DNA of 10,232 nt from Candidatus Falkowiibacteriota bacterium. GTDB lineage: Bacteria > Patescibacteriota > Patescibacteriia > Patescibacteriales > UBA12075. Positions within the stretch are counted from its first letter, which is position 1. Every line of letters begins with the position of its first letter. The DNA lies in assembly GCA_003647675.1 (NCBI GenBank), contig QMNH01000023.1, positions 1-10,232 on the forward strand, given 5' to 3'. Below the pieces are notes generated by a model that saw only the letters and a list, made by a program, of their open reading frames with translations, ran no database searches and had not been told where the DNA came from. Shown piece after piece: positions 3 to 10,232 of the stretch. A program made the translations under genes and the position numbers.

Positions 3-3000
3 TTAGATAGAAACGGCGATCCTTCGGGCTCAATAAGCTGCGAGCTTTATAGTGCGGATGGCTCCCCCGGCTCGCCCGACACTTCCCTAGCGGTATCTAC
101 TAACTTTATAAACGCTTCAGAGCTGCCAACCTTTGATAATGATATATATTTTGATTTTAATTTTGACGGCGTAGAAATTATCATGGGAACCTACTATTAT
201 ATAGTATTAAAAGCTTCCCAGGACAATGATGCAAGCAATTATTTTTATTCCGGATATGACGGCAATGGCACTAACGCTATCTATCAAACTGACGATTCCC
301 CTGTTTCCTGGACAGTAAAGGATTCGGGTGCTCAAATAAACTATAAATTGCATCAATCCAGAAGTGATTTTATGGGACTGGCTTCTTCTACCCCCACGCT
401 CGCGAATTTTCTTGATTCAGAGGGTTATAATAATGTTAATTCGGACGATAATGTTAATTACGAAGTATTGTCTAACCAAATTTTGGATGCGAAAAATGAT
501 ATAGAATTTCAATATCCCGGAAACTTTAAAGATGGTAAATTTGGCCGTTCAGTTGCCTCAGGCGATTTTAATGGAGATGGAATTATAGATATTCTGGCAG
601 GAACTGCCAGTTCAACTCTTCACGAAGTTTATATTTTCTTTGGAAGAACAGGACAACCAATGACTGCTATATCTTCGGCCGATGTTACTTTGCAATATCC
701 CGGAACGGATGATAGCGTAAATTTCGGATATTCTGTTGCCTCTGGTGATTTTAACGGAGACGGATATGATGACGCGCTAGTGGGAGCATATAATGCCGAC
801 ATCGGAAGCAGCAACGAGGGGAAAGCTTATATATTTTACGGCTCTTCCAACTTATCAGGGCCAGACAGCTCTGCCGATTACACAATGGAAGATCCGGACA
901 ATGTTGCTGATGATCGTTTTGGTTTGCAAGTTACTTCCGGTGATTTTAACGGAGACGGATATGATGACGCTTTGGTGGGGGCGTATTGGTCTAATATTGG
1001 AAGCAATAATGAAGGTAAAGCACATATTTTTTACGGTTCATCCAACTTATCAGGAACAGACAGCTCTGCCGATTACACAATGGAAGATCCGGATAATGTT
1101 GAGAATGATTATTTTGGCTATTCTGTTTATTCCGGTGATTTTAACGGAGACGGATATGATGACGCTTTGGTGGGGGCATTTAGTGCCGATGTTGCCGGAG
1201 GAACCGGCGACGATGACGGTAAAGCCTTTATTTTCTTGGGCGAGTCCGGACTTTCCGGAATAGAATCTACGGCCGACTACACGATGGAAGATCCGGATAA
1301 TGTGGCTCAAGATTATTTCGGCGTCTCCGTGTCCGCCGCCGATTTTAACGGAGACGGGTATGATGACGCTTTAGTAGGGGCATATTTTGCTGATGTTGGA
1401 AGTAGCAATGAAGGAAAAGCACATATTTTTTACGGTTCATCCGGTTTATCGGGAACAGATAGTACTGCCGATTACACAATGGAAAACCCAAACAATGTTT
1501 CACTCGACTATTTCGGCTGGTCAGTTACCGCCGCCGATTTTAACGGAGATGGATATGATGACGCTTTGGTGGGCGCGTATAATGCCGATATTGGAAGCGA
1601 TAAAGAAGGAAAAGCATATGTTTTTTACGGTTCATCCGGTTTATCGGGGACAGATAGCACCGCCGACTACACCTTGGAAGATCCGGATAATGTTATTGCT
1701 GATAATTTTGGTTATTCTGTCTATTCCGGCGATTTTAACGGCGACGGATATGATGATGCTTTGGTAGGAGCGTATCAGGCCGACGTTGACGCAGGTGATA
1801 ATAATGGAAAGGTTTTTCTTTACAATGGAGGCAGTTTTGTAGATAACACAGAATACGTAGTAATAACCGGCGATACCGGTGATTCACTTTTCGGCAGTGA
1901 TAACGCTTATGCAGGCGATGTTAACGGCGACGGATATGACGATTATATAGTCGGCGACTATGAATCTAACTCCGGAACCTATACCGATAGTGGTGGCGTT
2001 TACCTTTATTACGGCGGAAAAACAGTAAACACTTCATATCTGGCTTTTTACGGCAATGAAGCTACCGCCGGTTTTGGTGTAGACGTAGACGGCGGCGATT
2101 TTAACGGGGACGGTTATTCCGATATAATTATTGGCGCTTACGCGCACGACGCTGGAAGTTCTACGGCGTCAGATATAGGGCAAGCTTATATTTATTTCGG
2201 AGGGCCGAATATAAATCCGGCTTCGCCGGACGTAACCGTTTCCGGTGATTATAATACAATTTATTTCGGCAATTCAGTAGCCTCGGCCGGAGACGTTAAC
2301 TCCGACGGGTATGATGATTTTTTGGTTGGCGCGCCTTATTATCCAGCTACAGGCACTAATCGGGGCCAAGCCTACCTTTATTACGGTGGAGCAACTATAA
2401 GCACCAGCTCGGTTATAACAATTTCCGGCAGTGAGGATAATACTTATTTAGGTTTTGATGTCGGCAGTGCCGGGGACGTAAATGCCGATGGTTATGCGGA
2501 TTTTATAGTCGGTGCCTATATGCATGACGCCGGCTCTTCCACAGCCGCAAATTTAGGGCAAGCCTATATTTATTTAGGAGGGCCCGATCTCGATTCTACC
2601 GCGGATATAACACTGTCGGGTGATAACAACAATGCCCGTTTTGGCACGGCAGTAGCCGGAGCCGGAGACGTAAACGGCGACGGGTATGATGACGTTATTG
2701 TCGGCGCTTATGCTCATAATAATTTTGGCACCGAAGATATACGCTGGGGACGGGCTTATCTCTATTACGGCGGACAGTCAATGGATAATATTCCTGATTT
2801 TACCATGCTTTCAAACGAAGCCATCGCTCGGCTGGGACTGGCAGTGAATAAAGCCGGAGACGTAAATGGCGACGGCTACGCGGATATAATTGTAGGCGCG
2901 GATGCTAACGACGCTGACGGCACTGAAACGGAAGATTTTAATAACCGCGGGCAGGCTTATGTATTTTTTGGGTCTCCCCATATAGGAACCTCGTCAAACG

Positions 3001-3581
3001 TTAATAGCGCCGATATTATTATGTCGGGCCTGGCTGATAATGATTTTTTAGGACTTGACGTGGCTTATGCCGGTGATGTAAACGGCGACGGCTACGATGA
3101 TTTTATAGCTGGAGTACAGGAGTATACCGGTGCCGGCATGTCATATTTGTATTTTGGCGGTCAATCCGAATCCTATCCTATGTATAGTTTTAAGAATCAA
3201 TCTTTATTTGAATGCAATACTTTAAATTCTATTACCGCAACCTGGGACGGCCAATCTACAGCCGGAGCAGAACATAAAGATATTAAAATGGAATTATTCC
3301 ATTTCGGCACAATTAACGCCTGGGAATTGGCAACCGGCACCTCTATATTGGCAACAAGTACAGATGGAACATTAATTATCGCGACAACTACTAGCTTAGG
3401 CGAATACTGCGATGCAAACGACTGGTCTTATTGGCGGGTTTACCAGGAACCAACCAGTAATTTTTCCCAGATTTTCATGACCGACTACTGGAACGTTGAT
3501 TTTTCTTATCCCCAGGCGACCACCAAACCTTACCGTATGGAAGGGACGATTAAGATAGAAGGAGAGGTTAAGTTTGAGTGA
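3..3581 (+). CDS. Giant FG-GAP repeat (integrin-alpha-like beta-propeller) surface protein, 5' end outside window
   Basis: The reading frame is open from base 3, so the first Met at 183 is not the start; 60 more codons precede it and the true start is upstream. From base 3 there are 1192 codons before TGA, followed at once by an in-frame TAA. Residues 1-120 resemble the jelly-roll of choice-of-anchor R type proteins (motifs GSISCELYSADG and GTYYYIVLKAS). Residues 180-1053 hold 14 FG-GAP repeats, each with an FG or LG turn and a Ca2+-type loop DxNxDGxxD. Residues about 1060-1175 look like a beta-sandwich (TWDGQS, then DWSYWRVYQ). The last 16 residues form a double-EG tail shared with the next gene. 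FG-GAP propellers usually bind ligands or form adhesive scaffolds outside the cell; an adhesion role here is inference. No LPXTG motif or C-terminal membrane segment is seen. The signal peptide, if any, lies outside the window. Confidence 0.93.
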   Translation, partial: LDRNGDPSGSISCELYSADGSPGSPDTSLAVSTNFINASELPTFDNDIYFDFNFDGVEIIMGTYYYIVLKASQDNDASNYFYSGYDGNGTNAIYQTDDSPVSWTVKDSGAQINYKLHQSRSDFMGLASSTPTLANFLDSEGYNNVNSDDNVNYEVLSNQILDAKNDIEFQYPGNFKDGKFGRSVASGDFNGDGIIDILAGTASSTLHEVYIFFGRTGQPMTAISSADVTLQYPGTDDSVNFGYSVASGDFNGDGYDDALVGAYNADIGSSNEGKAYIFYGSSNLSGPDSSADYTMEDPDNVADDRFGLQVTSGDFNGDGYDDALVGAYWSNIGSNNEGKAHIFYGSSNLSGTDSSADYTMEDPDNVENDYFGYSVYSGDFNGDGYDDALVGAFSADVAGGTGDDDGKAFIFLGESGLSGIESTADYTMEDPDNVAQDYFGVSVSAADFNGDGYDDALVGAYFADVGSSNEGKAHIFYGSSGLSGTDSTADYTMENPNNVSLDYFGWSVTAADFNGDGYDDALVGAYNADIGSDKEGKAYVFYGSSGLSGTDSTADYTLEDPDNVIADNFGYSVYSGDFNGDGYDDALVGAYQADVDAGDNNGKVFLYNGGSFVDNTEYVVITGDTGDSLFGSDNAYAGDVNGDGYDDYIVGDYESNSGTYTDSGGVYLYYGGKTVNTSYLAFYGNEATAGFGVDVDGGDFNGDGYSDIIIGAYAHDAGSSTASDIGQAYIYFGGPNINPASPDVTVSGDYNTIYFGNSVASAGDVNSDGYDDFLVGAPYYPATGTNRGQAYLYYGGATISTSSVITISGSEDNTYLGFDVGSAGDVNADGYADFIVGAYMHDAGSSTAANLGQAYIYLGGPDLDSTADITLSGDNNNARFGTAVAGAGDVNGDGYDDVIVGAYAHNNFGTEDIRWGRAYLYYGGQSMDNIPDFTMLSNEAIARLGLAVNKAGDVNGDGYADIIVGADANDADGTETEDFNNRGQAYVFFGSPHIGTSSNVNSADIIMSGLADNDFLGLDVAYAGDVNGDGYDDFIAGVQEYTGAGMSYLYFGGQSESYPMYSFKNQSLFECNTLNSITATWDGQSTAGAEHKDIKMELFHFGTINAWELATGTSILATSTDGTLIIATTTSLGEYCDANDWSYWRVYQEPTSNFSQIFMTDYWNVDFSYPQATTKPYRMEGTIKIEGEVKFE
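540..1889 (+). repeat. FG-GAP repeats 1-7 (type A), period 183-204 nt
   Basis: Units start at 540, 723, 918, 1113, 1317, 1512 and 1707. The consensus is FGxSVxSGDFNGDGYDDALV, followed by GAY, a stretch ending GKAxIFYGSSxLSG, and ADYTMEDPDNV. Units 2-7 are nearly identical in protein and share long identical DNA words around the Ca2+ loop, so they look recently duplicated or homogenised. Unit 1 is diverged (GIIDILAG). Seven units is the number in one integrin-alpha-type propeller. Confidence 0.9.
1890..3161 (+). repeat. FG-GAP repeats 8-14 (type B), period 183-216 nt
   Basis: Units start at 1890, 2073, 2265, 2448, 2640, 2832 and 3048. The consensus differs from type A: AGDVNGDGYDDxIVGAY, with blade ends GQAYLYYGG and a lead-in resembling VTISGD. 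All seven keep the D, N, D, G and D positions of the Ca2+ loop, although unit 10 has NSDG and unit 11 NADG. They are more diverged from each other than the type A units, suggesting an older array. This is probably a second seven-bladed propeller. Confidence 0.88.
3531..3578 (+). other. C-terminal double-EG tail of the FG-GAP protein
   Basis: The last 16 residues are YRMEGTIKIEGEVKFE. They contain two consecutive hexads of the form hydrophobic-E-G-x-hydrophobic-K, followed by F. The tail follows a Pro-containing linker (ATTKP) after the last beta-sandwich. The next gene ends in the same pattern at 9439-9486. The function is unknown; a sorting, anchoring or assembly signal is inference. Confidence 0.75.
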
Positions 3582-3641
3582 TAAACATGAAGCATAAAAT
3601 ATGGGAGAGTATAAAGTAGAAAGTAATAAGAAAAAAGTTAT

Positions 3642-3704
3642 AAGTATTAAGCGATGGAAAATAATAAAAAATTAGAAATATAAATCAAAATGCAAAAATC
3701 AAAA
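3642..3704 (+). repeat. Spacer direct repeat, copy 1 (matches 9652-9715)
   Basis: About 63 nt beginning AAGTATTAAGCGATGG, matching 9652-9715 with a handful of mismatches and a 1-nt gap. It lies in the untranslated gap between the FG-GAP gene and the Gly-rich gene. It overlaps the next repeat by 18 nt. Confidence 0.8.
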
Positions 3705-3751
3705 ATAAAAATAACAATTCAAAATGAAAAATAGTTATATAAATAAAGATA
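3687..3751 (+). repeat. 65-bp direct repeat, copy 1 (matches 9771-9835)
   Basis: This 65-nt stretch aligns without gaps to 9771-9835, with 5 mismatches by my count. Its first half follows a 7-nt rhythm (AAAATGC, AAAAATC and variants). Its last 18 nt, GTTATATAAATAAAGATA, are identical in both copies and could include a promoter -10-like element, but that is speculative. The repeat runs across the ATG at 3724, so the first nine codons of the long reading frame consist of sequence that is non-coding in the other copy. Confidence 0.85.
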
Positions 3752-6700
3752 CAATGAGACTAAAGACAGGCCTTAAAAAACTGCATCGCAGTTTCAGGGA
3801 AAACAAAATAAAACAATGGTTTAGACCGGCTAATATCCGCGCGATTTTAACCATGCCCAGAAATTGGCTCCACATCGCCGGTCTGGCCATATTTATGTTG
3901 TCTGTTTATTTTTTAATATTCCACCCCCTGCCCCAGGCTAATAATAAAATAGAAGTCAGCCATACCGAATCAGGTAGTCCGGCCAGTATTACTATAACTA
4001 ACAAAGAATTTAAAATAGAATTGCAGGATATATATTCGGATATTGATGAGGCTGTATTCAGTGATCCGGCCAGGGCTAATCAATATATAGAGGCGATTAG
4101 CTATAAGGCTAAGAAAAAGAATATAAATACAGTTAATAATAAGAAAGTGGCTCTCAGTAATATAAATACCAATATAGTCTATATGGATGATTCTAACCTG
4201 GAATTTAATAAAGCTAATTTAGAGCTGAAAAAGCAGGATAATAATAAGTACATAAATACCATTTTATATTGTGCTGATAATGATTTTAATAAAAAAACCG
4301 GCGAATGTACTAATTGGCAGATATCGGATATAAAGCCGGAAAATAAAGATGATTATATCAGTTTTACCACTTATCATTTCTCCGCCTATGTCGGCGCTTA
4401 TTTGGAAATTATAGATGTCCAGTCCAATCTGACCAAGGGCGATGTCTGGGAAGTCAGGTTTCAGACCGAGGGGCTAGACAATCTGGAAATAGAAGCCGTG
4501 GACGGTACATTGTTTGATATTGATATAGAATTTATTAGTGTAAGTTGTGGTGAAACCGAGATAGCAAGCGAGAATATAGAATGGCAGAACCAAAAATTAA
4601 TAATAGCTAATTATTCCTGCGATAATGAAATATCCCGGATCAGGAATCAAACCATTACCGGCGGCCGGCATTGGCTTTCGTTCAGCTTTGGCTATACGCA
4701 AGGGGTACTGGCCCATAATTTTGCTTGTGATTCGGGTGATTTGGATACGGATTGTTATGTGACTACCCAGCAATACTTGGGCGACGGGGATGAGATATCG
4801 GGTAGTGGTAATTTAATTGTCCAGTCCGGTGGTGATTTAACTGCTAGCAGTTCGGCTACTTCCGGCACCACTTACGGCAATTCGTTTGGGATTGATATGG
4901 GTGGGGATATTACTATTCAGTCTGAGGGGATGATTACCGGGAATGTGATGGCTACGGCTACTGAGATTGATGTGCAGGTTGGAGGCAGTATTGATGTAGA
5001 TGAAAAAGGTTATCAAAAGCAAGCCGGTTTGGGCGCGGGTATATATGGGGGCGTTAGTTATTGTGGTACCGGAGCCGGTCATGGAGGTACAGGGGGGAAA
5101 CGGCCGGGTAGAGAAAATGGGCCAATTTATGGTTCTACTACCTATCCGACTTTACTAGGTTCTGGCGGCGGTAATGATGAAGACGGTTCTGGCGGTGGTT
5201 ATGGCGGTGGCGCGATTATATTAAGTATAAGCGGTACTACTACCATCAACGGAATAATATCAGCTAATGCCGGAGATGGGTATGCTGCTCAATGCGGCGG
5301 CGGATCAGGCGGCAGTATTTTAATAGAAACTAATACTTTAGCCGGTATTGGCACAACTTCCGCTGTCGGAGGTAAAGCTTACGAGTCTTGCGCTGCCGGC
5401 GGCGGCGGCGGCCGGATAGCGGTTTATTATACAACCGATAATTCTTCTCTCAACTATCAAGTCTATGGCGGGTATAACGCTGGCTCTAACACAAATTATA
5501 TGGGCGGTGGCGGTACAATCTACAAAAAATCATCCGCCCAGTCCCACGGCGATTTAATTATAGATAATAGTGATCGTTATTATACCGGGGTTTATGGAGA
5601 GATTTATCATGGCAAAACAGAAATTTATGATGAATTAATTGTTGACCAGTTAACAATAAGTAATAGAGGCTTCTTTAATGTTGTTGCTAGCACCAACCTT
5701 ACATATTCTAGTTTAGATTGGTCTAATGAAGCTATTATCGTTGATAATGGCGGTAGTTTTACTTTATTCGCTACTGGTACGGATATATATATTGCTACTA
5801 CCTCTATTCTAAAAGCTAATACCGAAAGAACCTGGGGAGATATTGAGATTGATGGTGTGTTGACTCATAGCATAAACAGCACTAATCCGGACTATTTAAT
5901 GAATTTAACCGTTAGCTCGGTTTTAATAAATTCAATTGGGGAAATAAACGTAAACTCTAAAGGCTACCAAAACCAAAACGGATTGGGTCAGGGGGATTAT
6001 GGGGGAAGTGGTCAGTGCGGTAGCGGTGCCGGCCATGGGGCTACAGGAGGCGCGGGCGCGAGCAGAACAAATGGCGCGGTTTACGGGTCTACGACTTATC
6101 CTGTTTTATTAGGTTCTGGTGGTGGAAATGATACTAGTGGTGCCGGGGGCGGGTATGGCGGCGGCGCGATTAAATTAAGTGTTTGCGGTACTACAACGGT
6201 GAACGGACTAATAACAGCTAATGGTGGAGATGGGTTTTTTAATCAATGTGGCGGTGGATCAGGTGGTAGTATCTTATTATATACTGATGTTTTAGCCGGA
6301 ATTGGTACTACTTCAGCTATCGGAGGTAAAGGCGAGGAGTTATGTACCGCCGGCGGCGCCGGCGGCAGGATAGCTGTCTATTGTACAACCGATAATTCTT
6401 CTATCATTTATCAAGCTTATGGCGGGTATAACGGCGGCACAAACACAGACAGAATGGGGGGTGCTGGTACGATTTACAAAAAGTCATCATCCCAGGATTA
6501 CGGCGATTTGGTTATTGATAATAATGGCCGGGATGATGAGGACGACGCCTATATAGGCAAAACCTATATAAATGAAGCTATTACCGTTAATACATTAACC
6601 ATTCAAAACGAGGGTCATCTAGATATATCCAATACTACTAATATTACCCATACTATTTTTAATTGGACCGATGCCGGTAATATTACAGACAACGGCGGCA

Positions 6701-9489
6701 CTCTGTCCCCATTCAGCGACAGCGGTAGTCTAACAATTGCCACTACTTCCCGTTTGCATGGAAAAGTGATTAGGACATTTACTGATTTAACCATAAACGG
6801 CACCATGATTTTATACAATTATAGTACCTCTAGCGCCGGTAAGCTGGATATTTCCGGGGATGTTATAATCGGTTCCAGTGGAAAATTAACCCATTATAAA
6901 AATTCAACCGCCCAAACTCATGTTATTAATTTGGAGGCAGATAATTTAACTATTGATAATGGCGGCATGATTGATTTAAGTGCTAAGGGCTATAAAGGGC
7001 AAAGCGGGCCAGGCGCGGGTGTGTATGGAGGCTCGGGTTATTGCGGTACTGGAGCCGGCCACGGCGGTACAGGCGGTAAGCGCGTAAGCAGAGCAAGCGG
7101 CCCCAGCTATGGTTCTACCACCGAGCCGAGCCAGTTAGGATCTGGCGGCGGAAACGATAATGATGGTTCCGGCGGCGGGTATGGCGGCGGCGCGGTTAAA
7201 TTAAGCGTAAGCGGCACCACAACAATAAACGGAATAATATCGGCTGATGCCGGGGATGCATTTATCTCTCAATGTGGTGGCGGATCTGGTGGTAGTATTT
7301 TATTATATACTGATGTTTTAGTCGGTATTGGTACTATTTCAGTTATCGGAGGTAATGGCAAGGAGCTATGTACCGGCGCTGGCGCCGCCGGCCGGATAGC
7401 TGTCTATTATACAACCGATAATTCTTCTATCATTTATCAAGCTTATGGCGGGTATAACGGCGGCACGAACACAGACAAGATGGGCGGTGCCGGCACCATT
7501 TATAAAAAATCATTATCCCAGGATCACGGCGATTTAATTATAGATAACAGTGGCCGGGACAATGAAGACGGTGTTTATGTGGGAAAGACAGTAATAATCG
7601 ATACTCTGCCCTTGAATACGTTAACCATCCAAAACTACGGCCATTTATATGCTTCTTCCATGTCCAATATTACCTATAACACGATAAGTTGGTTTGACGA
7701 GGCGATAATAGAAGATTACGGTGGTTTAACGACTATGTTTGATGGTAGCCAGAATATAATTATAGCTACTACTTCTCGATTATACGTTAACACTGCCAGA
7801 AATTGTAATAGTTTAATCGTAAACGGAAAATTATCCCATTGGTATAATACGACCGTGGAAGAAAACAAAATAAACATAACCGCCACTAACGATATTACGA
7901 TTAATTCCGGCGCTACAGTCAGCGTAAATGGCAAAGGTTATTCCGGCGGTTACGGCGACGGCGCTGGTTCAGACCAGGGTGGCTACGGCTCCGGTGCCGG
8001 TCATGGCGGTAAAGGCGGAGCCACGGCTGATGGGGGTAGTTCCGGCGGTTCCACTTATGACTCAACTACCACGCCGGTAAATATCGGCTCCGGAGGAGGT
8101 GATGACGGCGGCGTGACTGGCGGGCCAGCCGGCGGCGGCGCCATTAAATTAACCGCTGGCGGCACCATGATCATAAATGCTAATATCAGCGCTAATGGCA
8201 ATGACGCCACCAATGAAGATGGTGGAGGCGGTTCTGGCGGCTCCATATATTTGATTTGCGATACGTTAGCCGGTTTAGCCATCCTGTCATCCGACGGCGG
8301 CGAGCCACAGGAAGCAAATGCCGGCGGCGGCGGCGGTGGCCGTATTGCCCTGGATTACAGTACTTATAATGCTACCCTGACATTCAGCGTGGACGGTGGT
8401 GGCACCTCTTATCCGGGCGCGGAAGGAACGGTTTATCCGGACGCTAATCCCACGATTTCCACCCAGGACGCTACCAGCATCCAGATGACCTCAGCTACCG
8501 GCAACGGCTCGGTTGACTCGCTGGGCATAAATAGTATAACTGAACATGGACATTGGTGGGCTACCAGCACAATGGCTTCCAATACTCCCATATCCCATTG
8601 GAAAATGAACGATAATTTAGATAGCACAACAGTTATTGATTCAGTTGGTGAAAATAACGGCACTGCTTCTCAAGATACATTCGCAATGGCCACGTCAAGC
8701 GGTAAAATAAATAATGCATTAGTTTTTGACGGTAGCAACAGAATTGTAATAGATGATAACGATGAGCTTACTTTCGCAAACGCACTTTCTATATCAGTTT
8801 GGATTTATATTGATTCATTATCTTGGAGTGATAGAACGGCTATAGTAACTAAATATAATCATAGTACCAATCAAAGGGGTTATGTATTGGGACTAGGTAA
8901 AAATGGAGACTCTGATAAAAGCAGTTTGTGCTTTACTGTTTCTCAAACAGGATCAACTTTTACCGGCAAAGTGGTCTGCGGTACTACACAATTACAATCC
9001 AAGCAATGGTATCATGTGGCGGCTATTTTTGAAGCTAATCACGTTGAAATTTATCTTAATACAGATGAGGAAATTGATGATACTGATTCAGCAATAGCGG
9101 ATTTTATATACAATAATTCCGAGCCTTTATATATAGCTTATCATGTTAGCGAAGGTACTTATTTTAATGGAATTATTGACGATGTCCGCGTTTATGATTA
9201 TGTCCTAACAAGCAATGAAATATCCCAAATATATAATTCCGGCGTTGGCACGGAATATTCAGACGCCTTTTCAAACTATTCGGAACTAGGCGCCAAATCA
9301 TCAACCGGCGCGTTTCAGTCCCCGCTGACTGATTTAATAATGGACACCACCTACTATATCCGCTCCTACGCTACTTTGTCCGATAGCTCTACTATCTATG
9401 GCAATGAGGTCCAGTTTGATACCCCACTTCCGCCGAAATACCATGTTGAAGGGAAGGTTAAGATGGAGGGAAGCGTGAAGTTTAAATAA
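3724..9489 (+). CDS. Giant Gly-rich repeat protein with signal anchor, LamG and Fn3-like domains
   Basis: The frame has 1921 codons and ends in TAA. No Shine-Dalgarno is visible. ATG 3724 lies inside a spacer repeat, so ATG 3754 (residue 11) is the likelier start. Residues 1-47 are basic. Residues 48-67 form one hydrophobic segment, followed by PLPQA, a possible but imperfect signal-peptidase site. Residues 78-222 include ILYC, GECTNW and HFSAY motifs. Residues 227-323 form a second small domain (GDVWEVRF, VSCGE, YSCD, then LSFSFG). Residues 324-428 look like solenoid strands. Gly-rich modules start at 429, 747, 1089 and 1405. Residues 1625-1840 are a LamG/concanavalin-like lectin domain, flanked by halves of an Fn3-like domain (1577-1620 and 1841-1899). 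A double-EG tail ends the protein. It is probably a secreted or surface adhesin; no catalytic motif is seen, and no autotransporter barrel follows the repeats. Confidence 0.93.
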   Translation: MKNSYINKDTMRLKTGLKKLHRSFRENKIKQWFRPANIRAILTMPRNWLHIAGLAIFMLSVYFLIFHPLPQANNKIEVSHTESGSPASITITNKEFKIELQDIYSDIDEAVFSDPARANQYIEAISYKAKKKNINTVNNKKVALSNINTNIVYMDDSNLEFNKANLELKKQDNNKYINTILYCADNDFNKKTGECTNWQISDIKPENKDDYISFTTYHFSAYVGAYLEIIDVQSNLTKGDVWEVRFQTEGLDNLEIEAVDGTLFDIDIEFISVSCGETEIASENIEWQNQKLIIANYSCDNEISRIRNQTITGGRHWLSFSFGYTQGVLAHNFACDSGDLDTDCYVTTQQYLGDGDEISGSGNLIVQSGGDLTASSSATSGTTYGNSFGIDMGGDITIQSEGMITGNVMATATEIDVQVGGSIDVDEKGYQKQAGLGAGIYGGVSYCGTGAGHGGTGGKRPGRENGPIYGSTTYPTLLGSGGGNDEDGSGGGYGGGAIILSISGTTTINGIISANAGDGYAAQCGGGSGGSILIETNTLAGIGTTSAVGGKAYESCAAGGGGGRIAVYYTTDNSSLNYQVYGGYNAGSNTNYMGGGGTIYKKSSAQSHGDLIIDNSDRYYTGVYGEIYHGKTEIYDELIVDQLTISNRGFFNVVASTNLTYSSLDWSNEAIIVDNGGSFTLFATGTDIYIATTSILKANTERTWGDIEIDGVLTHSINSTNPDYLMNLTVSSVLINSIGEINVNSKGYQNQNGLGQGDYGGSGQCGSGAGHGATGGAGASRTNGAVYGSTTYPVLLGSGGGNDTSGAGGGYGGGAIKLSVCGTTTVNGLITANGGDGFFNQCGGGSGGSILLYTDVLAGIGTTSAIGGKGEELCTAGGAGGRIAVYCTTDNSSIIYQAYGGYNGGTNTDRMGGAGTIYKKSSSQDYGDLVIDNNGRDDEDDAYIGKTYINEAITVNTLTIQNEGHLDISNTTNITHTIFNWTDAGNITDNGGTLSPFSDSGSLTIATTSRLHGKVIRTFTDLTINGTMILYNYSTSSAGKLDISGDVIIGSSGKLTHYKNSTAQTHVINLEADNLTIDNGGMIDLSAKGYKGQSGPGAGVYGGSGYCGTGAGHGGTGGKRVSRASGPSYGSTTEPSQLGSGGGNDNDGSGGGYGGGAVKLSVSGTTTINGIISADAGDAFISQCGGGSGGSILLYTDVLVGIGTISVIGGNGKELCTGAGAAGRIAVYYTTDNSSIIYQAYGGYNGGTNTDKMGGAGTIYKKSLSQDHGDLIIDNSGRDNEDGVYVGKTVIIDTLPLNTLTIQNYGHLYASSMSNITYNTISWFDEAIIEDYGGLTTMFDGSQNIIIATTSRLYVNTARNCNSLIVNGKLSHWYNTTVEENKINITATNDITINSGATVSVNGKGYSGGYGDGAGSDQGGYGSGAGHGGKGGATADGGSSGGSTYDSTTTPVNIGSGGGDDGGVTGGPAGGGAIKLTAGGTMIINANISANGNDATNEDGGGGSGGSIYLICDTLAGLAILSSDGGEPQEANAGGGGGGRIALDYSTYNATLTFSVDGGGTSYPGAEGTVYPDANPTISTQDATSIQMTSATGNGSVDSLGINSITEHGHWWATSTMASNTPISHWKMNDNLDSTTVIDSVGENNGTASQDTFAMATSSGKINNALVFDGSNRIVIDDNDELTFANALSISVWIYIDSLSWSDRTAIVTKYNHSTNQRGYVLGLGKNGDSDKSSLCFTVSQTGSTFTGKVVCGTTQLQSKQWYHVAAIFEANHVEIYLNTDEEIDDTDSAIADFIYNNSEPLYIAYHVSEGTYFNGIIDDVRVYDYVLTSNEISQIYNSGVGTEYSDAFSNYSELGAKSSTGAFQSPLTDLIMDTTYYIRSYATLSDSSTIYGNEVQFDTPLPPKYHVEGKVKMEGSVKFK
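3865..3939 (+). other. N-terminal membrane segment / signal anchor
   Basis: Residues 48-72 start WLHIAGLAIFMLSVYFLIF and end PLPQA, after the basic stretch LTMPR. The third gene has the same segment with few changes (10047-10121). The leader before it is 47 residues when counted from 3724, which is long for a plain signal peptide. A signal anchor, or a signal peptide starting at the conserved Met of LTMPR, are both possible. Confidence 0.8.
5008..5568 (+). repeat. Gly-rich module 1, 187 codons
   Basis: Begins GYQKQAGLGAG and ends near GDLIIDN. It contains CGTGAGHGGTGG, a GSGGGND stretch, GTTTINGIISANAGD, QCGGGSGGSI and GGGGGRIAVYYTTDNSS. Cys sits at module positions 19, 96 and 128, and His at 25. 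The pattern suggests a Gly-rich beta-solenoid-like fold, which is inference. A linker of 393 nt separates it from module 2. Confidence 0.88.
5962..6522 (+). repeat. Gly-rich module 2, 187 codons
   Basis: Begins GYQNQNGLGQG. It is exactly as long as modules 1 and 3, with Cys again at positions 19, 96 and 128. It has two extra Cys not seen in the others (VCGTTTVNG and VYCTTDNSS). Its second half is very close to module 3 at the DNA level, especially from YTDVL to YGGYNGGTNTD. A 465-nt linker follows, the longest of the three. Confidence 0.88.
6988..7548 (+). repeat. Gly-rich module 3, 187 codons
   Basis: Begins GYKGQSGPGAG. It has the same length and Cys positions as modules 1 and 2. The first half (YCGTGAGHGGTGGKR) is closer to module 1 and the second half (YTDVLVGIGT to NGGTNTDKMGG) closer to module 2. 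This mosaic pattern suggests recombination between repeats. A 387-nt linker follows. Confidence 0.88.
7936..8451 (+). repeat. Gly-rich module 4, diverged, 172 codons
   Basis: Begins GYSGGYGDGAG and ends before the Fn3-like domain. It is shorter than modules 1-3 and lacks all three of their Cys (YGSGAGHGGKGG, DGGGGSGGSI and EANAGGGGGG at those places), but it keeps the GAGHGG His. It has a single Cys elsewhere (YLICDTLAG). As the most C-terminal unit it may be the ancestral or capping module; that is inference. Confidence 0.85.
8596..9243 (+). other. LamG (laminin-G/concanavalin-like) domain region
   Basis: Typical Laminin_G_3 landmarks occur in order: HWKMNDN, DSVGENNGT, GKINNALVFDG, LSISVWIYI, QWYHVAAIFE, VEIYLN, FNGIIDDVRVYDYVLTSNEI. 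In this family the fold is a beta jelly-roll that often binds glycans or proteins. The flanking sequences together look like one Fn3-like domain (first half from 8452, second half through 9420). Confidence 0.88.
9439..9486 (+). other. C-terminal double-EG tail of the Gly-rich protein
   Basis: The last 16 residues are YHVEGKVKMEGSVKFK, the same pattern as the tail at 3531-3578. The aromatic, both EG pairs, both hexad-end Lys and the final KF are in the same places. Resemblance continues in DNA a few bases past the stop (AAACATGAAG versus AAACATGGAAG). It follows a Pro-rich linker (TPLPPK). Confidence 0.75.
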
Positions 9490-9651: not shown

Positions 9652-9715
9652 AAGTATTAAGCAATGGAAAATAATTAAAGAATTAGAAATATAAATTAAA
9701 ATGCAAAAATTAAAA
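9652..9715 (+). repeat. Spacer direct repeat, copy 2 (matches 3642-3704)
   Basis: Begins AAGTATTAAGCAATGG and matches the earlier spacer with few mismatches and one 1-nt gap. It is followed by about 73 nt that repeat the AAAATGC word region, so the two repeat blocks that overlap in spacer 1 are separated here. Confidence 0.8.
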
Positions 9716-9763
9716 TGATAATTTAAAATGTAAAAATAATAAAAATAAGATAAATAAGAAGAA

Positions 9764-9798
9764 AAAAATCAAAATGCAAAAATCAAAAATCAAAATGA
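9764..9798 (+). repeat. 7-nt word run, AAAAATC/AAAATGC family
   Basis: Five consecutive heptamers in strict 7-nt register: three AAAAATC, one AAAATGC and one AAAATGA. A related run starts at 9698 and lacks one unit, and another starts at 3687. Poly-A content alone would not keep the T-C/T-G positions in register. Confidence 0.7.
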
Positions 9799-9835
9799 CA
9801 ATTTAAAATGCAAAATTGTTATATAAATAAAGATA
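9771..9835 (+). repeat. 65-bp direct repeat, copy 2 (matches 3687-3751)
   Basis: Aligns ungapped to the earlier copy with 5 mismatches. Its last 18 nt (9818-9835) are identical to the earlier copy. Here the segment is untranslated and ends 124 nt before the next start codon. Confidence 0.85.
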
Positions 9836-9845
9836 GAAAGTTAGA

Positions 9846-9959: not shown

Positions 9960-10232
9960 ATGGCAAAAACACAAAAAACAAAAGAATTATTTAAACGATT
10001 TAAACCGGAATCCATCCGTGCCTGTTTAACCATGCCCAGAAAGTGGCTCCACATCGCCGGTCTGGCTATATTTTTATTGTCTGTTTATTTTCTCATATTC
10101 AACCCCTTGCCCCAGGCTAATAATAAAATAGAAATCAGCCATACCGAATCAGGCGCTCCGGCCAGTATTACTATAATTAACAAAGAATTTAAAATAGAAT
10201 TGCAGGATATATATTCGGATATTGATGAGGCG
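9960..10232 (+). CDS. Start of a tandem paralogue of the Gly-rich giant protein, 3' end outside window
   Basis: The frame has 91 codons, open at the right edge. ATG 9960 is the only start after an in-frame TGA at 9921; no Shine-Dalgarno precedes it. Residues 1-24 are a basic leader, 19 residues shorter than that of the upstream gene, but both contain F, a basic residue, P, two variable residues and then IRA. From LTMPR onward the first 69 residues match the upstream protein at 63 positions, and the DNA at about 193 of 207 positions. This covers the membrane segment (residues 29-48), PLPQANN and the start of the first extracellular domain (NKEFKIELQDIYSD). The rest of the protein cannot be seen, so whether it shares the Gly-rich modules is unknown. 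High similarity points to recent duplication or gene conversion. Confidence 0.9.
   Translation, partial: MAKTQKTKELFKRFKPESIRACLTMPRKWLHIAGLAIFLLSVYFLIFNPLPQANNKIEISHTESGAPASITIINKEFKIELQDIYSDIDEA

Follow-up and report, generated by a model that had tools for sequence, protein, structure and literature searches.

The C-terminal domain (CTD) of type IX secretion extends over roughly 70-100 residues. The PEP-CTERM signal, in those sections of its description drawn on here, consists of a PEP motif, a transmembrane helix and a basic cluster, and the PEP-CTERM/exosortase (EpsH) system is linked to exopolysaccharide (PMC1569441). The Bam beta-signal, as worded in the consulted part of PMC10945584, follows at the C-terminus the consensus zeta-x-G-x-x-[aromatic/hydrophobic]-x-[aromatic/hydrophobic], zeta being a polar residue. 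Finally, CPR bacteria are proposed in an excerpted source to lack an outer membrane (PMC6744442). A search of the literature on surface sorting in Falkowbacteria and Patescibacteria, with most subscription papers outside its scope, found no description of the C-terminal tail that is the subject of this report.

The tail was noticed in a single contig, C23, of a draft genome of 1.17 Mb in 209 contigs (G000, hereafter the home genome); the whole contig, 10,232 bases in length, is referred to as the window. Its relevant features are the following:

3..3581, forward strand: ORF1, 1192 amino acids visible, open at the 5' contig end, with tail 1 at its C-terminus
3531..3578, forward strand: tail 1, YRMEGTIKIEGEVKFE, end of ORF1, stop codon directly after
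3543-3578, forward strand: core of tail 1, GTIKIEGEVKFE
3724..9489, forward strand: ORF2, 1921 amino acids, with N-terminal hydrophobic segment, Gly-rich repeats, LamG and tail 2
3865..3921, forward strand: N-terminal hydrophobic (signal or anchor) segment of ORF2, residues 48-66
8728..9225, forward strand: Laminin_G_3 domain of ORF2, residues 1669-1834, Pfam E 1.3e-24
9439..9486, forward strand: tail 2, YHVEGKVKMEGSVKFK, end of ORF2, stop codon directly after
9451-9486, forward strand: core of tail 2, GKVKMEGSVKFK
9960..10232, forward strand: ORF3, start of an ORF2 paralogue, cut by the contig end, its C-terminus not visible

The translation of ORF1 closes with ...KPYRMEGTIKIEGEVKFE-stop and that of ORF2 with ...PKYHVEGKVKMEGSVKFK-stop. 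An earlier note on this DNA had proposed that both visible C-termini carry the same tail, and this is borne out: the translation is as first noted, 9 of 16 residues are identical, and the BLOSUM62 score of 54 was reached in 0 of 200,000 shuffles of both tails (maximum 46). Non-tail C-termini from context loci, compared in 3,486 pairs, attained that score in a single case, namely two homologous Fn3 proteins occupying the same place in a common gene order. At the DNA level the two cores agree at 26 of 36 positions and the four flanking blocks (two of them overlapping) at 10, 13, 13 and 13 of 36; the likeness of the window tails therefore ends at the tail borders and, the flanking DNA being dissimilar, they are not the edge of a longer duplication. 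The proteins in front of the tails differ, as the note had also held, Pfam placing FG-GAP (integrin-type) beta-propeller repeats in ORF1 and Laminin_G_3 in ORF2. Scored with profile A5, of which both are themselves members, tails 1 and 2 give E 1.3e-8 and 5.3e-9, respectively.

Further features of the window concern ORF2 and its relatives. The hydrophobic segment at residues 48-66 has a Kyte-Doolittle mean of 2.12 over 19 residues. Fn3-like sequence lies on both sides of the LamG domain, which may, according to a structure model, be inserted in an Fn3-like domain (window 8449-9414); in the model of the ORF2 end, the strands flanking LamG (model residues 2-38 and 276-324) are predicted with fair confidence, unlike the middle. 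The starts of ORF2 and ORF3 share 89% DNA identity (3815-4052 vs 9994-10231), and the paralogue family, with near-identical N-termini, has four matches in the home genome, ORF2 counted, those outside the window lying at L092 713-3736 and L093 12654-13217. The C-termini of the other three paralogues are not visible, being cut by contig ends. Between the big genes there are AT-rich intergenic repeats of about 97 bases (window 3658-3754, 9669-9765 and 9742-9838).

Profile searches of the 111 genomes of the order found 11 tail copies in 7 genomes, all at the exact C-terminus. Six of the carrier genomes are among the 12 members of the window's family, and the seventh (G100) is an outlier from another family; no tail was found by profile search in the other six family members. 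The genomes without a tail found include G004, G007 and G011, each at least 95% complete. The home genome holds four of the 11 copies, three of these four in one protein family. Since the first pass of the genome search scored 0-22 candidates per listed genome, all these tallies are lower bounds. The earlier note had named beforehand confinement to two neighbouring genes as the outcome that counts against it, and the tail is not so confined. Its expectation that many large proteins share the tail held for the position, always at the very end, and failed for the number per genome, which is 1-4.

The tails were gathered in steps. A two-row profile made of the window tails only, run on 11 family members, detected four further tails (E 0.007-0.66), each of them exactly closing an ORF with between 352 and 2,707 residues visible, and one internal match in the home genome. 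A six-row profile added two tails, both in G100, along with five other matches (E 0.04-0.47) that do not lie at the end of a long protein; once the two G100 tails and that of the database protein P0003 had been included, new tails appeared in C57 and C129 of the home genome and in G001. With the resulting 12-row profile the order scan returned 19 matches at E <= 3, of which 11 are tails (E <= 2.2e-6, all C-terminal) and the remaining 8 (E >= 0.003) were inspected and are not. As the 11 tails are members of the 12-row profile, the independent evidence is the stepwise discovery. Scans of the class (380 genomes) and of the phylum (379, the two sets overlapping) gave no new tail; four matches at E 0.007-0.02 were inspected and rejected.

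Whole-protein search with ORF2 gave 1,853 matches, the best 120 of which (query included) were examined in a set of 121 proteins; among the 121 from the matches listed, P0003 is the only tail bearer besides the query. In that same set, a different ending, [FW]G[FW][LIV] followed by at most 8 residues, closes 13 of the 121 proteins. A protein-database search with the tail region recovered only the query and one unrelated Fn3-type match (P0002), which is no evidence of rarity because the candidate filter is too stringent to let tails through. A second scan used a strict codon pattern, without the stop codon, on a collection of 84,980 species, and yielded 23 stretches with 25 matches (26 with overlaps). 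Four stretches fall precisely on the end of an ORF with 233 or more residues visible: L036 (Falkowbacteria RIFOXYA2_FULL_47_19), whose contig matches that of G010 at the same coordinates, L046 and L049 (bin C19.47), whose contigs match those of G100, and L045 (2-2899), in this collection the sole long-ORF-end match outside contigs matching G010 and G100. The FG-GAP protein of L045 shares 31-33% identity with ORF1; its contig was assigned to a Terriglobia bin, perhaps by mistake, transfer being the alternative. As for the rest, L034 closes a 52-residue ORF, L033 runs into a contig end, the frames of L035 and L038 (117 and 54 residues) end 4 and 1 residues past the motif, and the remaining ones are either internal or confined to short frames. 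A viral origin was rejected, the strict pattern occurring in three viral-contig stretches and in none of them at the end of a long ORF.

The tail carriers are of diverse build. ORF1 is an FG-GAP protein, as is L045. ORF2 and P0003 contain LamG, while their relatives C57 and C129, partly visible, are without it. G009 bears the tail on an SBBP propeller protein of 2,707 amino acids, G010 on a right-handed beta-helix protein with homologues in G001, G002, G008 and G100 (C41), and G100 in addition on a protein of 454 residues (C50) with no Pfam match. The ORF2-like and the beta-helix carriers each being interrelated, these amount to about five independent protein types, and the homologous beta-helix carriers of G001, G002, G008, G010 and G100 do not represent independent gains. 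All five carriers whose N-terminus was examined have a hydrophobic N-terminal segment, from which we infer that the carriers are exported; these segments and the domain types together suggest a place at the cell surface. The G008 tail gene lies in two overlapping ORFs in different frames (L087 1-981 and 945-2000), a split for which assembly error, decay and frameshifting are all candidates.

For the anatomy of the tail, the 11 copies of the order scan were joined by those of P0003 and L045, giving 13 tails, 12 of them distinct (two are identical). Their last 12 positions read G-x-hydrophobic-x-hydrophobic-[KRE]-G-x-[VIF]-[KRE]-[FI]-x-stop. The earlier note had spoken of 'EG' hexads; the glycines stand, those at -12 and -6 being invariant in 13/13, and the glutamate does not, the residue before the second glycine being K, R or E. 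Position -3 is likewise K, R or E in all 13 tails, and the last residue is K or E in 11. Upstream of the core, [YF]-[RK]-hydrophobic is present in nine of the 13 tails and P-G-G, a turn, in six; a fuller form, [KG]-[YF]-R-F-x-P-G-G-..., occurs in 6/13 (two of the six identical), and the window's two tails are a shorter version of it. The sequences thus show a genuine C-terminal module, some 16-20 residues long, that unrelated proteins of a Falkowbacteria-like lineage have in common.

When the 12 distinct tails are laid out as a strand, one face is hydrophobic or Gly at 72 of 72 positions and the other at 5 of 72, a count taken on tails gathered by profile, a procedure which favours look-alikes. 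The glycines sit on the same face as the hydrophobic residues. This alternation backs the strand character proposed in the earlier note and suggests that the tail forms an amphipathic beta-strand or hairpin. As a whole it is hydrophilic: across the last 25 residues of six carriers the best 15-residue hydropathy ranges from -0.51 to 0.11, with no hydrophobic segment. The AlphaFold model of the ORF2 end (mean pLDDT 53), in whose alignment only two rows contain the tail, leaves tail residues 331-346 below 50 and assigns them no strand; as values under 50 also prevail in the LamG domain, whose fold is known (block means of the Fn3 parts are 72-90), the low value says nothing firm about the tail. 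A second model is poor throughout (mean pLDDT 38).

Conservation was assessed in the related carriers C57 and C129. Their last 20 codons differ by 0 amino-acid and 5 synonymous changes, and the preceding 170 codons by 39 amino-acid differences (one pair; Fisher p 0.016), which shows the residues of the tail to be under constraint in this pair.

The tail has no convincing match in Pfam, NCBIfam or PDB and, with all copies C-terminal, is not internal to a known domain. At E 10 the 12 tails, scanned apart from their proteins, matched no NCBIfam model and gave a single Pfam match for one tail (YhdX, E 0.2); against PDB sequences there was no good match, the best being E 0.4. The earlier note had set the tail apart from LPXTG, PEP-CTERM and type IX signals, and rightly so: the first two motifs are each absent from all 13 tails, a hydrophobic segment is lacking in the six carriers examined, and no T9SS sorting-domain model in NCBIfam and Pfam matched at the same threshold. 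The data support a C-terminal tail that is distinct, restricted to this lineage and carried by proteins which differ otherwise and are apparently exported.

As to its function, I tentatively prefer, at somewhat less than an even chance, a beta-strand docking tag for the surface retention of large adhesin-like proteins. After Sec export of the carrier the tail would stay free and join a shared surface component, its putative partner, as an edge strand; such strand addition, in place of covalent anchoring, would retain or assemble the large adhesin-like proteins on the cell. Docking is favoured because tails were found stepwise, always at the stop codon and on several protein types, because hydrophobic and hydrophilic residues alternate so strictly (72/72 vs 5/72) and residues are conserved between C57 and C129, and because the five examined carriers join a hydrophobic N-terminal segment to a hydrophilic tail. 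With only 1-4 copies per genome and none found in half of the family, the evidence is thin for a general sorting system. A wider proposal, tentative too and held a little less firmly, is that Falkowbacteria-like Patescibacteria possess a hitherto undescribed, non-covalent surface-retention system in which a C-terminal amphipathic beta-strand tag of 16-20 residues, moved between unrelated giant surface proteins, would be read by a putative receptor in cells that lack an outer membrane and, in some carriers, a sortase.

It is rather unlikely that the tail is a cleaved sorting signal, recognised and removed by a putative membrane or surface peptidase that would attach the protein to a glycan or lipid, after the manner of the LPXTG, PEP-CTERM and type IX systems. 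The exactly C-terminal position on unrelated, apparently exported proteins suits such a signal, and so does the presence of polysaccharide genes near the tail gene in 3 of the 7 carrier genomes, recalling the exopolysaccharide link reported in the consulted sections of PMC1569441. In G008 (L087 2004-7358) a Polysacc_synt flippase lies directly downstream of the tail gene, with two glycosyltransferase genes and one of the Wzy_C ligase type beyond it; in G002 (L086 2-1396) one small ORF separates the tail gene from a Polysacc_synt flippase; in G010 (L089 12324-13802) a Wzy_C gene lies about 1.5 kb upstream. However, no such neighbours were seen in the retrieved stretches, some on short contigs, of the other four carrier genomes, and the last 25 residues of the six carriers offer no hydrophobic segment. 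Sortase PF04203, the only transpeptidase family searched, has one copy in each of 10 of the 13 genomes searched; it was not detected in the carriers G009 (99% complete) and G100 (89% complete, so that a miss is possible there), yet is present in G003-G006 and G011, in which no tail was found. The earlier note's expectation of a co-occurring processing or anchoring gene thus failed for the two families searched, sortase and Omp85, the former occurring in tail-bearing and tail-less genomes alike; of its suggested sorting, anchoring or strand-assembly signal, the strand part has gained support and the sorting or anchoring part has found no accompanying processing gene.

Neighbouring genes provide leads only. 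The same order follows the tail gene in C129 of the home genome (L084) and C6 of G010 (L089), which belong to two genera: the gene of an MQS-type Fn3 protein comes first, and next that of a protein which begins with an LLNFTGKVT region. Another conserved C-terminal tail, unlike the first, helical-looking and exemplified by ESVVDLIVKNLEEMFGFLK, was observed on Fn3-type proteins, several of them named as Patescibacteria (L084 1378-3345, L089 1817-3760, P0005, P0010, P0013, P0015 and others); the [FW]G[FW][LIV] ending of the 13 proteins mentioned above refers to it. Repeated words of the RDAINRVST / RDEACLVST type appear in translation at L083 5213-5587, L084 658-942 and L092 2-511, and are probably a dispersed DNA repeat.

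About as improbable as a cleaved sorting signal is a self-association strand, by which tails of different carriers would pair, or the tail would cap the end of a beta-helix or propeller, cross-linking the large proteins into a coat without a dedicated receptor. The strict amphipathic alternation agrees with it, as does the nature of the carriers: propellers and proteins of the beta-helix group account for 7 of the 11 tail genes. Two weak non-tail profile matches (E 6.7 and 0.84) are, moreover, bactofilins, polymer-forming proteins with a similar G-x-V-x-I-x-G pattern; yet hhalign of the tail with the two gave probabilities of only 4.9% and 16.6% (single-comparison E 0.0081 and 0.0015, over 9 and 11 columns), and Pfam Bactofilin matched none of the 12 tails. 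Against capping, the same tail occurs on folds that have little in common to cap.

Less probable still is that the tail is a relic of domain shuffling, left over from gene ends swapped among surface-protein genes and having no present role of its own. The window is indeed rich in repeats and paralogues, and two beta-helix homologues end at a visible stop without a tail, C63 of G001 (L117), a genome with a tail elsewhere, and C13 of G102 (L118); the tail may therefore be present or absent within one domain family. (The ends of the further homologues in G002 C73, G001 C55 (second ORF), G012, G035, G057 and G058 are cut, gapped or doubtful; L102, which runs off its contig, and L101, whose frame continues after one stop codon, were not counted as tail-less.) The reading frame of the beta-helix protein of G012 (L101 1-1467 and 1471-3036) is interrupted once, by an in-frame stop codon. 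A relic is at odds with C57 and C129, one pair, where all tail residues were kept while codons changed, with the arrest of DNA likeness at the borders of the window tails, and with the hydrophobic and Gly positions kept in 12 distinct tails.

That BamA reads the tail as an outer-membrane beta-signal is scarcely credible: the tail is a short C-terminal amphipathic strand with conserved glycine and hydrophobic-x-Phe near its end, but the consensus, in the form given in the consulted part of PMC10945584, is met by 0/13 tails in strict as well as relaxed form, -3 being always K, R or E, the glycines share the face of the hydrophobic residues, Omp85/BamA (PF01103) was found in 0/13 genomes as against 7/14 control genomes, and CPR bacteria are proposed, in the excerpted PMC6744442, to have no outer membrane.

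The preferred docking tag would be of use in several ways. Patescibacteria are mostly uncultured and many of them probably spend their lives attached to other cells, so that the way in which they hold large adhesin-like proteins on their surface is of interest. A compact tag would allow candidate surface proteins to be listed from genome sequence alone, and the tail peptide itself could serve as bait for the putative receptor. The tail teaches caution as well, for at first glance it looks like a Bam beta-signal, yet it fails in register and machinery.

In comparison with known systems, the tail shares with LPXTG/sortase substrates a C-terminal position on presumed surface proteins, in genomes most of which (10/13) have a sortase; it differs in having neither LPXTG (0/13) nor a hydrophobic stretch, and this system is ruled out by the missing motif and by the carriers without detected sortase, G009 and G100. 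With PEP-CTERM, as far as the consulted sections describe it, the tail shares a short C-terminal homology on diverse proteins with N-terminal signals (PMC1569441), as well as polysaccharide genes nearby in three of seven carrier genomes, but the PEP motif and hydrophobic helix are absent, carriers are few per genome, and the lineage is one proposed, in the excerpted source, to lack an outer membrane (PMC6744442). Type IX signals, in the partial accounts used, are similarly C-terminal elements common to unrelated surface proteins; they are far longer than the tail, and T9SS is described there from Bacteroidetes. The Bam beta-signal, ruled out by register and by the failure to find Omp85 in the 13 genomes, is alike as a terminal amphipathic strand with a conserved glycine and unlike in register and in the last residue, K or E in 11 of the 13 tails. 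Finally, the tail carriers are set apart from Type V pilus and TasA donor-strand proteins by being large and multi-domain, with no groove protein or protease identified here; the likeness, in manner of working only and as far as the partial accounts of those systems go, is that an end strand could complete a neighbour's sheet.
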